From Desulfatitalea sp. (GTDB lineage: Bacteria > Desulfobacterota > Desulfobacteria > Desulfobacterales > Desulfosarcinaceae), in the NCBI GenBank assembly GCA_013041835.1, contig JABDRH010000062.1:1-13777 (forward strand): a DNA stretch of 13,777 nt. The letters run 5' to 3'. Shown here piece after piece: positions 677-8,568 of the stretch; within the stretch, counting starts at the first letter, position 1, and every line of letters starts with the position of its first letter. The translations under genes and the position numbers were made by a program. The notes below the pieces were generated by a model that saw only the letters and a program-made list of their open reading frames with translations, ran no database searches and was not told the DNA's origin.

Positions 677-782
677 CGCAAAAGCCGGAGGGCGCCAGAG
701 TCAAGGCGCCAAGGGTGAAGCCGTAGCCAAGGCTACTGCGAACTCTTGGCAACGCCGGATCTGGCGCCCTCCGGCTTTTGCG
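677..782. repeat. 106-nt imperfect inverted repeat (long hairpin) at a convergent gene junction
   Basis: Bases 677-699 and 760-782 are perfect 23-bp reverse complements. Inside, GGCG+CCAAG (705-713) can pair with CTTGG+CGCC (745-749, 753-756) around a small bulge, and the centre GTAGCC-AA-GGCTAC (723-736) is a perfect 6-bp hairpin. The whole can fold into one long cruciform or stem. The right arm lies inside the 3' end of the minus-strand gene at 733-1566 and supplies its last codons and stop. It sits between two converging genes, so it could act as a bidirectional transcription or mRNA 3'-end element, although the T-run is only four bases. The modular palindromic build resembles dispersed REP/MITE-like elements, but only one copy is visible here. 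Confidence 0.85.
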
Positions 783-1566
783 TGAGGGCTATCTGCTTTA
801 GGGTGGCAAAAACAGCCCCACCTTCCAGGTCTGCTGCAGCGTCCGGCTTGGCCATCTGTTCGAATTGCCGCATGGCGGCTTTATCGTCGCTCTTAATGGG
901 CCGGTGCAGCATTGTCAAGCGATCGTGCATCAGGTTATACAGCACGGCTGGGCCCATCCGGGTCAAACCGGGTTGGGGCTGGGATACATCACCCCATATG
1001 TGGTGATGCGCCAGTTGGAACATCCTTGGCGCCTTGCGCCAGCCCAGCACTTCGGCAAAAAGCGTCAACGTCTCAACGATCCCCTCGCGATAAGAATGAT
1101 TCAGGGCTTGGACACCGTCGGCCGCCAGCGCGTCGATATCCGCCGCAGTGTAATTCAGGTCCAGGCCCTCGACCAGGCGGTTGCGGACCCGCTGCAATGT
1201 GTCGGCCCCCTTGCTGACCACCACGTCCGTGTCATTGAGGATTTTAACGGCGTTGCGAATGCTGATCATCTCCTTGATGGTGGGGCTCTTGCGCAATGCC
1301 ACGTCCGCAACGGTCGTATGGTAAACCTTCAGTTCGCTGTCCAGTACAAGGATGAGACGCTTGTCGTCCTCTCCGGGCTGGCAAAACAGATCAAGGTCGC
1401 GCTCGCGAAGGTGCTCATAATCCCCCATGTCCAGCAAGCGACGCATGGTTTCCCGGTCCACCCGGGAGGAGCTGCCCCCCGACTTGGCCGGTTGCAGGGA
1501 GCGGCCCACTTGATGCGTCAGCCGATCCATCTCTAGTTTTTTGAGCAGGTTTTCTTTAAAGCCCAT
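733..1566 (-). CDS. Conserved-looking hypothetical protein, 277 aa
   Basis: I do not recognise this family. The protein is soluble-looking, with no signal peptide or membrane segment, and rich in Leu, Arg and Asp. An N-terminal basic amphipathic stretch (MGFKENLLKKLEMDRL) is followed by a Gly/Ser linker near residues 29-34 and then a mostly helical body with many charged residues. A His-rich patch (LAHHHIWGD) lies near residue 190. The ATG start has an AAGGG Shine-Dalgarno about 10 bases upstream. The gene lies 59 bases downstream of the MDR oxidoreductase on the same strand, so the two are probably co-transcribed. Its final residues (KPEGARSGVAKSSQ) are encoded by the right arm of the 106-nt inverted repeat, which suggests that the natural C-terminus was replaced or extended by that element. 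Coding status is well supported by length, ribosome binding site and context; function is unknown. Confidence 0.8.
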   Translation of the reverse strand: MGFKENLLKKLEMDRLTHQVGRSLQPAKSGGSSSRVDRETMRRLLDMGDYEHLRERDLDLFCQPGEDDKRLILVLDSELKVYHTTVADVALRKSPTIKEMISIRNAVKILNDTDVVVSKGADTLQRVRNRLVEGLDLNYTAADIDALAADGVQALNHSYREGIVETLTLFAEVLGWRKAPRMFQLAHHHIWGDVSQPQPGLTRMGPAVLYNLMHDRLTMLHRPIKSDDKAAMRQFEQMAKPDAAADLEGGAVFATLKQIALTQKPEGARSGVAKSSQ

Positions 1567-4155: not shown

Positions 4156-4461
4156 CTAGTCGAAATCGCCAAGGGGCCGGGTGAAGGTGAAAGCGGCCGG
4201 ATAGACCACCAGATTGTTCCAGGTCTCGCCGGCATTGCCGCCCAACAGCGCGAAGGGTGAGGCGATGATGAACAGGCCGAAACCGGCCACCGTAGCGACG
4301 ATACCGATGGGGCGTGCGATCAGGGTGTCCCCCACCATGTACCCGACATTGAGTTGGGGATCTTCAAACTCATCCTCCAATTGGGCCAAGGCACGAAAGG
4401 GGGTGAGCAGGAATGCCGCTGCCACCAGAACAACCAGATATCGTATGACGGTTCGTTTCAT
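4156..4461 (-). CDS. Small exported/membrane protein of unknown function, 101 aa
   Basis: I start this gene at the ATG at 4461 because AGGAGA lies five bases upstream; an ATG six codons earlier has no such site. The protein opens with a classic signal peptide, MKRTVIRYLVVLVAAAFLL then TPFRALA, with likely cleavage before QLEDEF. A short acidic stretch (LEDEFEDPQ) follows, then a hydrophobic segment around residues 54-74 (IGIVATVAGFGLFIIASPFA) that looks like a transmembrane helix. It ends FTRPLGDFD. No Cys follows the signal sequence, so it is not a lipoprotein. The product is probably anchored in the inner membrane with most of its mass outside the cytoplasm. It is convergent with gltA and divergent from priA. 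No family function is known to me. Confidence 0.75.
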   Translation of the reverse strand: MKRTVIRYLVVLVAAAFLLTPFRALAQLEDEFEDPQLNVGYMVGDTLIARPIGIVATVAGFGLFIIASPFALLGGNAGETWNNLVVYPAAFTFTRPLGDFD

Positions 4462-4633
4462 TGGGTCTCCTGTATCCATTGCAGGTTATGCTTTTACCAT
4501 GTGATGATGCATGGGGTGTGTTTCGTTTGCACCGATTGTTTCTTTGCCCTTTGCAGTAGAGCGGATCGGTTGAAATCATACCAACTCTTTGGGGCGCCTG
4601 CAATCTTTTCATCACTGCGTGCGATAGGGGTAG

Positions 4634-7084
4634 ATGCCAAATAGCCTCTCCCAGCCAACAGACCTGATCGAAGTCGCCGTGCCTCTGCCGGTTCACGACA
4701 TCTTCACCTATCGCGTGCCCCAGGCTTTCACGGGGCGTATCGCGGTGGGCATACGGGTGCTGGTGCCTTTCGGCCGCCGCCGCATCACCGGCTATGTCGT
4801 CGGCATCGGCGCACCGCCGCCGGAGGCCACACTCAAATCGATCCTGGATGTCATGGATGATATGCCCCTGTTTCCGGGGTGCATGTTGCCTTTCTTTCAA
4901 TGGGTGGCCGACTATTACATCCATCCCCTGGGCGAGGTGATACAAACGGCCCTGCCGTCTGGTATCAACTTGGCTGAACGGGTCTATTTCAGTCTCAGCA
5001 ATACGGGTCGGCACGCCCTGTCCCAGGCCGAGCTGAACGAACCGGCCTTAAGGATTCGGCAGCGGCTTGAACAGGGGCCTTGCACCAAGGCCGCCATTCA
5101 ACGACGGGTTGGCAAGACCTTTCTCAATACAAGTTTCGCGGAATGGGAACGAAGGGCCTGGGTGATCAAACAACACCTTATGAGCGGCGGGCGGACGCGG
5201 CCAAAGACCCTGCCGTTTGTTCATTTGGGTCAGCCGCTGGATGATGACTGCCGGCTTTCCGCGTCGCGTCGGAAAATACTGGATACGCTCACCCAACAGG
5301 GGCCCATGAGCGTTGCGGAGCTGAAATCGGTGGTGCCGACCGCGGCCAATCTTGTGCGCGCCATGGCCGCCGCGGGCCAAGTGGAGATCAAACCGCGTCA
5401 GGTCTATCGTGATCCATTCGGCGAACCCATTGTCCCCGATCAGGCGCCGTCACTAAGTTCTGAGCAGGTGCAGGCCGTGGTCCGCATGGCACCGGTTTTG
5501 GGACAGGGGTATCACACCTTTTTGCTCTTTGGGGTCACCGGCTCGGGTAAGACCGAGATTTATCTGCATATGGCGCACCGGTCCATTGCCATGGGGCTGC
5601 CGGTGATTGTCTTGGTGCCTGAAATAGCTCTGATCTCTCAAACCGAGCGGGCTTTTCGGGCGCGCTTCGGCGATTGCGTGGCGTTGCTGCACAGCGGCTT
5701 GTCCGATGGCGAGCGGTTGGACCAGTGGCGGCGTATCCAGCGTGGAGAGGTCCTCATCGCCATTGGTGCCCGTTCGGCGGTGTTTGCCCCCTTTGAAGCC
5801 ATTGGGCTGATCGTCGTGGATGAAGAGCATGACGACGCCTATAAACAGGAGGGCGCTTTGCGCTACAATGCCCGCGACTTGGCCGTGCTGCGGGCCCAGC
5901 AGCAGGGGGCCGTGGCCCTGCTCGGCTCGGCCACCCCTTCGCTGCAATCGGCGTATAATGCGCAAATGGGCAAATTTGAAAAAATCAGCCTGTACGAGCG
6001 GGTGGATCGTCAAATGTTACCGCAGATCCAGGTCGAGGATTTGACCACGATGCATGAAGTGCGTGCCGCGGACCGCTTCTTGACCGCCACGTTGATTCAG
6101 TCCGTGCAGGAGACCTTGTCACGGAAAGAACAGGTGCTGATCTTTTTGAACCGTCGTGGATTTGCCAATACTCTGGTTTGCGCCGCCTGTGGTCAGTCCG
6201 TCAAATGTGCTCACTGTGATGTCGGCCTGACCTTCCACCAGGGCATCAACGCTTTTCAGTGTCATTACTGCGGTTTCAGCCGGGCGGCGGCGGCGCGTTG
6301 CACCCGCTGTGGTTCAGCGCGAATCAACCGTCTGGGCATCGGGACCGAGCGTCTTACCGACCAGCTCAAGGCGCGTTTTCCCGCGGCCTGTGTGGCCCGC
6401 ATGGATCGTGACACCACCCGCCGAAAGGGTGCGCTGCTCAAAATTCTCAAAGCGTTGCGGGATCGTCGCATCGATATTCTCGTGGGCACGCAGATGGTGG
6501 CCAAAGGCCATGATTATCCCCATATCACCCTGGTGGGGATCATCTGTGCCGATATGTCCCTTAATCTTCCTGATTTCAGGGCTGGCGAACGAACCTTTCA
6601 GATACTGGCCCAAGTGGCCGGCCGCGCCGGACGGGGCCAGTCACCCGGCCGCGTGATTTTGCAGACCTACAATCCCCGGCATTTCAGTATTGTCGCCGCG
6701 CGTGATCAGGATTTCGAGGCCTTTTACCGGCAGGAGATGCAATTTCGCCGAGCGCTTGGCTATCCGCCGGTCACCCGCATGATTCAACTGCGTATCAGCG
6801 GTCGCAATAAAGGGCGAACGGCCGATTACGCCCGCCGGATGGGGGATTTCGGGGTCCGTTTACAGCGGCAAACCGCCGGCTTTGGGGATTTGACGTTGCT
6901 TGGGCCTATTGAAGCGCCGTTGCACCGAATCGCCGACCGCTACCGGTGGCAACTGCTGGTCAAGGGCGGGCAGGTTCGCACGCTGCACCAATACGTACGT
7001 TCGTTGCTGTTTGGGCCCGAAGGCATGGCCGGTACGGGTGATATCGCCGTGGCGGTGGATGTGGACCCGGTCTATTTGATGTAG
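4634..7084 (+). CDS. priA: Primosomal protein N' (replication restart helicase PriA)
   Basis: PriA recognises stalled forks and D-loops, unwinds the lagging-strand arm 3' to 5', and reloads the replicative helicase. At 816 residues this is full length. The N-terminal DNA-binding domain contains the typical VAVPLPVHDIFTYRVP and PFGRRRITGYVVG. The helicase core has Walker A GVTGSGKT at residues 300-307, DEEH at 396-399, QEGALRYNARDLAVLRA and LLGSATPSLQS. Eight Cys in CxxC pairs from residue 516 form the zinc-binding insertion (CAAC, CAHC, CHYC, CTRC). Motifs GTQMVAKGHDYP, CADMSLNLPDFRAGER and QVAGRAGRG complete the C-terminal helicase lobe. The start ATG is preceded by GATAGGGG. It is a single gene with its own upstream region and no visible operon partner; the next gene has its own promoter-like sequence. 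Confidence 0.97.
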   Translation: MPNSLSQPTDLIEVAVPLPVHDIFTYRVPQAFTGRIAVGIRVLVPFGRRRITGYVVGIGAPPPEATLKSILDVMDDMPLFPGCMLPFFQWVADYYIHPLGEVIQTALPSGINLAERVYFSLSNTGRHALSQAELNEPALRIRQRLEQGPCTKAAIQRRVGKTFLNTSFAEWERRAWVIKQHLMSGGRTRPKTLPFVHLGQPLDDDCRLSASRRKILDTLTQQGPMSVAELKSVVPTAANLVRAMAAAGQVEIKPRQVYRDPFGEPIVPDQAPSLSSEQVQAVVRMAPVLGQGYHTFLLFGVTGSGKTEIYLHMAHRSIAMGLPVIVLVPEIALISQTERAFRARFGDCVALLHSGLSDGERLDQWRRIQRGEVLIAIGARSAVFAPFEAIGLIVVDEEHDDAYKQEGALRYNARDLAVLRAQQQGAVALLGSATPSLQSAYNAQMGKFEKISLYERVDRQMLPQIQVEDLTTMHEVRAADRFLTATLIQSVQETLSRKEQVLIFLNRRGFANTLVCAACGQSVKCAHCDVGLTFHQGINAFQCHYCGFSRAAAARCTRCGSARINRLGIGTERLTDQLKARFPAACVARMDRDTTRRKGALLKILKALRDRRIDILVGTQMVAKGHDYPHITLVGIICADMSLNLPDFRAGERTFQILAQVAGRAGRGQSPGRVILQTYNPRHFSIVAARDQDFEAFYRQEMQFRRALGYPPVTRMIQLRISGRNKGRTADYARRMGDFGVRLQRQTAGFGDLTLLGPIEAPLHRIADRYRWQLLVKGGQVRTLHQYVRSLLFGPEGMAGTGDIAVAVDVDPVYLM

Positions 7085-7119: not shown

Positions 7120-7163
7120 ATCATGTTTAGGTCGAATGCTTGCGACATAAAGGAGATTGCTCC

Positions 7164-7958
7164 ATGCTAACTTTTCAAAAATGGGCCTTTAGACGGTTGA
7201 GCATTGCCGTTGTATTGCTCTTCGGTCTTTGCGCGGTGTTCGCTTGGCTTGTGAGTGTCCCCCCAGCCGCGGCCGATGATACCGTCCCGGCCGCGTCTAA
7301 ACAGCCCGAAGCCGTCTTTCCCGAAATGACTTATAATTTTGGTACGGTCATGGCGGGCACGACGGTTAAGCACGAATTCGTCATTGAAAACAAGGGAAAG
7401 ACCACGCTGACGATCAAGAACGTGCGAACCGACTGAGGCTGCTCGGTGGCCTCTAATCCGGGGCAGGTCCCTGCCGGTGGCAGGGATAAAATCAGCGTGG
7501 TGGTCCATACCGCGAATCGTGGCGGGCAGCATCTGACCAAACGGGTACGGGTATTCACCGATGATCCCAAAAGACCCGACGTGGCTCTCATCGTGACCGG
7601 TAAAGTCGAAGCATATGTCACGGTGACACCCAGCCGCGTTCGTCTCATCGGCCGCACGGAAGAAGAACTGGTTCAGCAGGTGCGCATTACACCAGGCAAT
7701 GGCAAAAAAGTGACCATCACGGATGTCAAGGCCAGGGGGGGGGAGCATATCCGGCTGGACCTGAAACCCCTGGGAAAGGACGCTTCCGCGGAAGGCTATC
7801 TTCTGACGGTAACCGTTACCAAAAAAGAGGCGGGCAATTTCGGTGATTTTATCGAGTTGAAGACGGACCTGAAGGAGCAGCCCACCATCGGCATACCGGT
7901 GAGCGGACGTTTGATGGCCGTACCAAAGAAACCGGTTGAAGGTCATCCCGGTGAATAA
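7164..7958 (+). CDS. Exported DUF1573 protein with in-frame UGA: predicted selenoprotein (Sec91)
   Basis: Read with TGA at 7434-7436 as selenocysteine, this gives one 264-residue protein. A signal peptide (residues 1 to about 37, ending VPPAAA) sends it to the periplasm or leaves it membrane-anchored. Residues 53-120 form a DUF1573 Ig-like beta domain: FGTVMAGTTVKHEFVIENKG, TIKNVRTD, then U-GCSVAS, VPAGGRDKISVVV and VRVFTDDP. Family members have Ser-Cys-Gly-Cys-Thr at this point, so the TGA replaces the first Cys and creates U-x-C, a redox-like motif. A second beta-rich domain (about 130-255) follows. Both halves share one frame with no other stop. The ATG has AGGAG eight bases upstream; the GTG at 7446, which would start a separate ORF, has no ribosome site and lies mid-domain. 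A SECIS-like hairpin follows the TGA. Alternatives are a nonsense mutation or sequencing error; the exact Cys position makes these less likely. Confidence 0.85.
7458..7477 (+). promoter_or_regulatory. Candidate bacterial SECIS stem-loop downstream of the UGA codon
   Basis: GGCAG (7462-7466) pairs with CUGCC (7471-7475) around the loop GUCC. CC (7458-7459) can pair with GG (7476-7477) if two G are bulged. The apical loop begins 30 bases after the UGA, within the 16-37 range I recall for bacterial SECIS elements, and the first loop bases are G and U. The apical sequence GCAGGUC is identical to the apical part of the E. coli fdhF SECIS as I remember it. A competing stem, 7467-7475 with 7479-7487 and loop GGU, is longer but its loop starts 39 bases after the UGA. 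SelB would recognise the first to insert selenocysteine. Confidence 0.6.
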
Positions 7959-8568
7959 GATTAGCGTGGTGGCCTTTGACTGCGACGGCGTCCTGTTTGA
8001 CTCCGCTGAAGCCAACCGGGCCTACTATAACCAGATTCTGAGGCATTTTGACCTGCCGGACATGACGGACGCGCAATTCGCCCATGCCCACATGCACACG
8101 GTCGATGAAGCCCTGTCCAATCTCATCCAAGACCCTATCCTGCTGGACCAAGTCAACTCTTTCCGCAGCGGACAGAGCTATGTTCCCTTCATCCGTTTCA
8201 TGCGGATGGAGCCTGATTTGCGCTCATTGCTGGAACGGCTGCGCCCCGTCTTCAAGACGGCCATCGCCACCAACCGAACCGATACGATGATGCGTGTTTT
8301 GCAGGACCACGGGCTGGAGGGGGACTTTGATAAGGTTGTCACCGCGGCGGATGTGCGCTATCCGAAACCTCACCCCGACCTGTTGCTGCAACTATTGGAC
8401 TATTTCAGGATTACGGCGGATCGAATGATCTATATCGGGGATTCCCAGGTGGACGAAGTCGCTGCTCACGAGGCGCTGGTACCGTTTGTGGCCTACGGCA
8501 ACCCCCGTCTCAACGCCGATTATCACATCGACCATCTCGGTCAATTGGACGACCTGCTCTTGGGCTGA
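7951..8568 (+). CDS. HAD-superfamily hydrolase (phosphoglycolate-phosphatase-like)
   Basis: This 205-residue cytoplasmic protein has all four HAD motifs: motif I FDCDGVLFDS with nucleophile Asp10 and Asp12, motif II Thr/Asn in AIATNRTD, motif III Lys in YPKPHPD, and motif IV acidic residues in IGDSQVDE. A helical cap (about residues 18-85) lies between motifs I and II, as in the C1 phosphoglycolate-phosphatase group. It should remove phosphate from a small metabolite; the substrate cannot be named. I choose the GTG at 7951, which overlaps the DUF1573 gene by eight bases and has GAAGG about eight bases upstream. A TTG five codons earlier is possible but less likely. The overlap implies translational coupling with the selenoprotein gene. 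Its last 59 bases overlap the 3' end of the kinase gene on the other strand. Confidence 0.9.
   Translation: MNKISVVAFDCDGVLFDSAEANRAYYNQILRHFDLPDMTDAQFAHAHMHTVDEALSNLIQDPILLDQVNSFRSGQSYVPFIRFMRMEPDLRSLLERLRPVFKTAIATNRTDTMMRVLQDHGLEGDFDKVVTAADVRYPKPHPDLLLQLLDYFRITADRMIYIGDSQVDEVAAHEALVPFVAYGNPRLNADYHIDHLGQLDDLLLG

Follow-up and report, generated by a model that had tools for sequence, protein, structure and literature searches.

A family of DUF1573 proteins is already on record as selenoproteins, under the name OS_HP2, and the idea that it contains selenocysteine (Sec) is not new. A table published in 2008 (PMC2398784) lists OS_HP2 with pfam07610, the motif UxC and 2 sequences, while tables of 2022 (PMC9312934) and 2026 (PMC13188914) list DUF1573 with pfam07610 and the motif UGC, both citing Zhang and Gladyshev 2007; PMC10434189 names DUF1573 once. 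The passages that hold these tables make no mention of the HAD/priA gene order, the candidate two-hairpin RNA element, the two predicted Ig/ASH-like domains or the redox gene clusters of Sec paralogues described below. NCBIfam holds a model, NF041425, named “OS_HP2 family (seleno)protein”. The initial annotation of the present locus, made from the sequence alone, had known of no described Sec-containing DUF1573 protein, a possible novelty that the NCBIfam entry and the 2008, 2022 and 2026 tables rule against. Literature searches under either name, DUF1573 or OS_HP2, returned no functional or biochemical study, which was counted against the redox reading proposed below; among the titles listed by searches on MauE/rhodanese/selenoprotein and on MauE/MauD/disulfide, none was on an OS_HP2 protein. 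The study of 2007 reportedly concerned the delta symbiont of Olavius algarvensis.

The gene analyzed here is a genuine member of this known selenoprotein family that is mis-annotated. It lies on the plus strand of the window (the whole stretch of 13,777 nucleotides that was analyzed) and occupies positions 7164-7958, from an ATG at 7164 to a TAA at 7956-7958, preceded by AAGGAG (7150-7155), which by eye resembles a ribosome-binding site. Two stretches, 7164-7433 and 7437-7955, share one frame in both sequence and translation and are separated by a single TGA (7434-7436). The initial annotation had read them as one DUF1573 protein, with coordinates that proved exact, and the Pfam DUF1573 match (PF07610, residues 52-148; 67.7 bits against a gathering cut-off of 26.1) spans the TGA. 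The OS_HP2 product has 264 residues, with Sec at position 91, and matches NF041425 over residues 53-149 (120 bits, curated cut-off 100). Residues 1-37 (7164-7274) form a likely signal peptide, as had also been proposed from the sequence, judging from the translation by eye and from a helix at residues 2-29 in the AlphaFold2 (AF2) model, with probable cleavage after AAA, placed by eye. The triplets TGA-GGC-TGC (7434-7442) encode the Sec-Gly-Cys (UGC) pair, of which Cys93 is specified by 7440-7442; in the translated mature protein U91 and C93 are the only residues of their kind.

The TGA at 7434-7436 is almost certainly a selenocysteine codon. The next two codons specify Gly-Cys, and in alignment with two full-length Cys homologues, P0003 and P0006 (45% and 49% identity to the window protein, respectively), it stands opposite the initial Cys of the CGC motif, as had been claimed in the initial annotation. 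The suggested check of homologues at position 91 bore this out, since column 91 (U or C) and Cys93 were invariant among 53 aligned proteins. At the codon level, 67 distinct loci, one of them the window, were compared at column 91: TGA stands there in 52, and TGC or TGT in the other 15. This ratio is no estimate of frequency, because the model behind the search was built on Sec proteins (loci L021-L050 are its 30 best matches) and the Cys loci were chosen, being the rows marked “none” in the same match list plus three places in the genus. Left out of the count were L058 (the window itself), L059 (identical downstream of the TGA to L062, from another genome), L101-L103 (the same places as L035, L048 and L023) and L065-L078 (which coincide with L001 and L051-L064). 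The TGA loci include six other distinct genes of the window type within the genus. Beyond this set, an in-frame TGA-Gly-Cys was found by pattern in 19 of 20 further loci of the phylum, L117 being the exception. A stretch of 173 open codons arose in 134 of 20,000 first-order Markov sequences; the conservation of TGA at a single column in 52 of 67 loci is a far stronger argument against chance than this control.

Exchanges between Sec and Cys have occurred repeatedly. On a tree of 91 rows at least 8 changes of the Sec/Cys label were counted, 5 of them forced by starred branches, with a bootstrap that is not fully settled. In genome G250 the Cys copy L060 is sister to the Sec copy L064 (support 100/99), and both are of the window type; L060 carries CNC in place of CGC. 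Natural Sec/Cys pairs of this kind, one of them within a single genome, would allow a direct test of what Sec contributes. The window's own genome also encodes a second DUF1573 protein (contig C388; L001:1192-1923, minus strand), which carries CGC, not UGC, and whose gene is flanked by reading frames that by eye are formate-dehydrogenase-like and HdrA-like.

Downstream of the UGA, positions 7449-7486 contain a two-hairpin element that is likely a SECIS, as far as comparison of sequences can tell, with the spacing and loop features of the published bacterial rule divided between the two hairpins. The proximal hairpin A (7449-7464), identified by conservation of its pairs, starts 17 nt after the UGA and comprises 5 bp and a 6-nt loop; the distal hairpin B (7468-7486) starts 39 nt after the UGA and comprises 8 unbulged bp and a GGU loop, with −14.6 kcal/mol in the window gene. 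The rule (as given in PMC13188914, where some bacterial elements are said to depart from it) calls for a loop of 3-9 nt, a stem of 4-16 bp, a G at loop position 1 or 2, a distance of 16-37 nt from the UGA and a minimum free energy (MFE) of at most −7.5. The spacing of 17, stem of 5 and loop of 6 of hairpin A fit, while its UA loop start and MFE of −6.3 fall outside (a G within the first two loop positions occurs in 17 of 52 TGA genes). Conversely, hairpin B fits in its GGU loop, stem of 8 and MFE of −14.6, and falls outside in its spacing of 39. Neither hairpin complies on its own with the whole rule, which was weighed against the preferred reading.

The case for the element rests on comparison, since the stretch folds weakly on its own (z of −0.59, −2.12 and −1.39 at three lengths). 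An Rfam scan of the window at the gathering threshold gave no match. Hairpin A (columns 16-20 × 27-31, counted from the T of the TGA) formed completely in 45 of 52 TGA genes, and none of the 15 Cys genes had all five of its pairs; 96.2% of its cells were paired in the TGA set and 46.7% in the Cys set. When codons were redrawn synonymously from each gene's own usage, the TGA set fell from 4.81 observed pairs of 5 to 2.83, and the Cys set from 2.33 to 1.87. A Cys gene at a priA-HAD site (L095), whose peptide is nearly that of Sec genes such as L037, formed 2 of the 5 pairs. Within the TGA set, 3 of the 5 pairs showed changes on both sides, for one pair in just one sequence. These both-side changes and the loss of hairpin A in Cys genes support the element. 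Of the 7 pairs of the family register, hairpin B (columns 36-53) formed 5 or more in all 52 TGA genes and in 7 of 15 Cys genes; this hairpin is in part protein-driven, since its GG loop is kept in 14 of the 15 Cys genes too. For the two-helix structure as a whole, none of 500 shuffles attained the observed values for percentage paired, cells with changes on both sides and covariation score, a result that relatedness alone can cause, while the number of both-side-changed pairs was reached by 82 and that of further pair types by 389 of the 500, both of which count against the element.

The genome encodes most of the selenocysteine machinery whose presence the initial annotation had asked to be verified. 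The selA gene is split over contigs C246 and C6, selB is represented by its 5′ part (243 residues, up to a contig end), and selD lies on contig C491 with an in-frame TGA of its own, within Cys-Gly-TGA. The remaining gene, selC, was not found by family and pattern searches of the assembly (86.9% complete, 693 contigs), where the sub-threshold matches were tRNA-Leu, -Ser and -Arg according to ARAGORN. Among the 11 genomes of the genus, 8 gave a selC match over the cut-off, and the other two genomes that lack it are 73% and 64% complete; its absence from the window's genome is read as an assembly gap. Throughout the genus, the selD matches over the cut-off contained one TGA (12 of 12), its exact place being seen in the window's own genome and in L146. 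Genes for MauE and rhodanese directly adjoin the TGA-containing selD in two genomes, the window's own (L019:2521-3575, minus strand) and G250 (L146); as a general neighbourhood of selD this arrangement was rejected, since just 2 of the 12 selD loci in the genus show it.

OS_HP2 is common in the order, where family matches were found in 261 of 291 genomes (247 over the cut-off), yet it is split by gene callers. Within the genus a match was present in all 11 genomes, with TGA at 12 of 15 places, and of the 395 genomes sampled from the phylum 161 matched, 45 over the cut-off. Among the 150 matches listed for the order, 138 contained exactly one TGA and 12 none, as counted by eye, a proportion biased by a family model built on Sec proteins. 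Searches against plasmids (tblastn) gave no match, and a scan of the contig database (genome_contigs) matched only 2 loci. The split annotation foreseen for this gene also seems borne out by the protein database: of 39 matches to the window protein, 30 are 147-184 aa long, lack a Pfam domain and cover 53-64% of the query, and look like downstream fragments split off by gene callers. One of these 30, P0002, is the window's own 170-aa downstream piece.

The OS_HP2 gene is preceded by priA (4634-7084, plus strand; NCBIfam TIGR00595, 595.4 bits against a cut-off of 230.35) and followed by a gene for a HAD-family hydrolase (7951-8568, plus strand; Pfam HAD_2, 92.4 bits). The latter probably starts at a GTG at 7951, judged by eye, and would overlap the end of the selenoprotein gene by 8 nt, although its reading frame is listed from a TTG at 7936; its product passes two general HAD-IA models and none of the equivalog cut-offs shown. 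A HAD gene lies downstream in 48 of 52 TGA loci (in 46 of these 48 the match begins no more than about 200 nt from the stop), and priA lies upstream in 33 of 52; among the 19 TGA loci without priA, 4 are cluster paralogues described below and 2 have less than 1.1 kb of upstream DNA. At the Cys loci, a HAD gene adjoined in 2 of 15 and priA in 1 of 15. Further upstream, a 107-residue protein encoded at 4156-4479 (minus strand) matches nothing in NCBIfam and no Pfam family over the cut-off, and its homologues are repeatedly divergent and upstream of priA in relatives. Similarly, a 277-residue protein at 733-1566 (minus strand) has no NCBIfam match, and its homologues adjoin citrate synthase in relatives from the genus and the family.

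None of 14 queries for redox partner genes matched at the window locus, which offers only priA and the HAD hydrolase, and this was counted against the redox reading. A different context was found for some Sec paralogues. At seven cluster loci (L065-L068, L124, L126 and L130), grouped after their neighbours had been viewed, genes for MauE and rhodanese each occurred in five, thioredoxin in four and DsbD_TM in three; L065, on a 4.5-kb contig, had none of the four. In comparison, of the 22 HAD-type Sec stretches (L101-L103 counted) none contained MauE and two contained rhodanese, and the 15 Cys stretches contained neither. Of the other 17 loci of the phylum, none gave a match for MauE or thioredoxin and three gave one for rhodanese, which was likewise counted against the redox reading. 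Since the neighbour queries were taken from L066, L067, L124, L116 and L118, and thus partly from the same loci, the cluster is confirmed independently by L068, L126 and L130 only. Genes that by eye appear ArsR-like, or that match ArsP_1 or SBF, lie near L065-L067, L124 and L126, with a cation-efflux domain in L124. As a hint, the surroundings of certain Sec paralogues point towards redox. In a different lineage within the phylum (L116, L118, L121, L131 and L132), the Sec-DUF1573 gene adjoins an S41-protease-like gene (named by eye), and at three of these five loci (L116, L118 and L131) a rhodanese gene is near.

The mature protein is predicted to consist of two Ig/ASH-like beta-sandwich domains. 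The AF2 model, made with Cys in place of Sec (pLDDT 91.8), is all-beta after the N-terminal helix except for a 4-residue helix at 207-210, and the alpha/beta thioredoxin fold is absent from it. In structure comparison the modelled fold resembles ASH/HYDIN/PapD domains. A PDB search with the protein sequence alone returned three ribosomal S12 chains only (E 0.21-0.53). With the alignment, 16 chains were found up to E 1, of which only 2qsv (E 2e-4) fell below 0.001; it has no CGC at the aligned place.

We consider it probable, with some reservation, that OS_HP2 is a periplasmic selenol/thiol redox protein. The Sec codon and the RNA element are backed by computation, as are the predicted fold and the gene order; export, redox cycling and the electron donor we infer. 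In the proposed mechanism, the two-hairpin element at 7449-7486 would direct insertion of Sec91 at the UGA, and the protein would be exported and mature into two Ig/ASH-like domains, with the Sec91-Gly-Cys93 pair placed between two strands of the first. Sec91 and Cys93 would cycle between the selenol/thiol and the selenenylsulfide forms and pass electrons on to oxidised periplasmic substrates; an exported beta-sandwich with a single Sec/Cys pair would be suited to such exchange. The reductant would probably be a membrane electron carrier of the MauE/DsbD type, as the genes clustered with some Sec paralogues suggest. The thioredoxin, DsbD_TM and MauE genes of these clusters are presumably thiol electron carriers. 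Tentatively, OS_HP2 may be a MauE/DsbD-fed periplasmic Sec-Gly-Cys carrier with an Ig/ASH rather than a thioredoxin fold, recoded through two hairpins and encoded in an order-wide OS_HP2-HAD arrangement that often includes priA. If the redox reading is true, a non-thioredoxin scaffold would be added to periplasmic thiol/selenol chemistry.

The main rival is suggested by the ArsP_1/SBF and ArsR-like genes of the paralogue clusters: the protein may contain Sec but use its UGC pair mainly as a periplasmic binding site for a soft metal(loid) (Cu, As or Hg). CXC pairs are soft-metal ligands, and the regulator or transporter genes near L065-L067, L124 and L126, together with the cation-efflux domain of L124, would fit such a role. 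We nevertheless hold it unlikely, in view of the thioredoxin, DsbD_TM and MauE genes in the same clusters and of the window-type locus, which is without these transporter or regulator genes. The likeness of the predicted fold to ASH/HYDIN/PapD domains would also accord with a purely structural role of the pair, as a selenenylsulfide clip within an Ig-like scaffold or an adhesin domain. Sec should bring little advantage to a bond of that kind, however, and TGA was present in 138 of the 150 best matches listed (with the bias of the Sec-built model), so that this alternative is quite improbable.

The remaining alternatives concern the TGA itself. Of the 12 window genes checked, 5 end in TGA as an ordinary stop, and the assembly yielded no selC, as would be expected if the codon were a true stop, whether through sequencing error, in a pseudogene or between two separate proteins; yet 52 of the 67 distinct loci have a TGA in this column, six other window-type genes of the genus among them, the cut would fall within one domain, and complete hairpin A occurs only where the TGA is present, leaving this explanation highly improbable. 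An altered code that assigns TGA to Cys or Trp is less probable still. Cys at this column in 15 of 67 loci would agree with it, but the genetic code is not globally altered, since TGA ends those 5 genes and lies in frame inside the OS_HP2 gene alone; moreover, selA, selB and selD genes are present and a specific hairpin follows the TGA. Selenocysteine insertion, with probable service in periplasmic redox exchange, is the reading we prefer.

Compared with the described systems, the window protein shares both the domain and the UGC motif of the OS_HP2 family (NF041425), and no difference at the protein level was found. Cys-containing DUF1573 proteins (PF07610; P0003, P0006 and the genome's own copy on C388) have the same domain and a CGC pair at the same columns, and differ in Cys for Sec; across the 15 tested Cys loci, a set to which P0003 and P0006 do not belong, hairpin A was never complete and a HAD gene adjoined in two. 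The ASH (PapD-like) domains of HYDIN and CEP192 are eukaryotic, and we know of no redox pair in them. With the thioredoxin-fold selenoproteins of the UxC/UxxC type the window protein has in common a Sec near a resolving Cys; in contrast to these, its model is all-beta and of two domains. The gene order, the candidate RNA element and the predicted fold provide useful new context for a known selenoprotein family.
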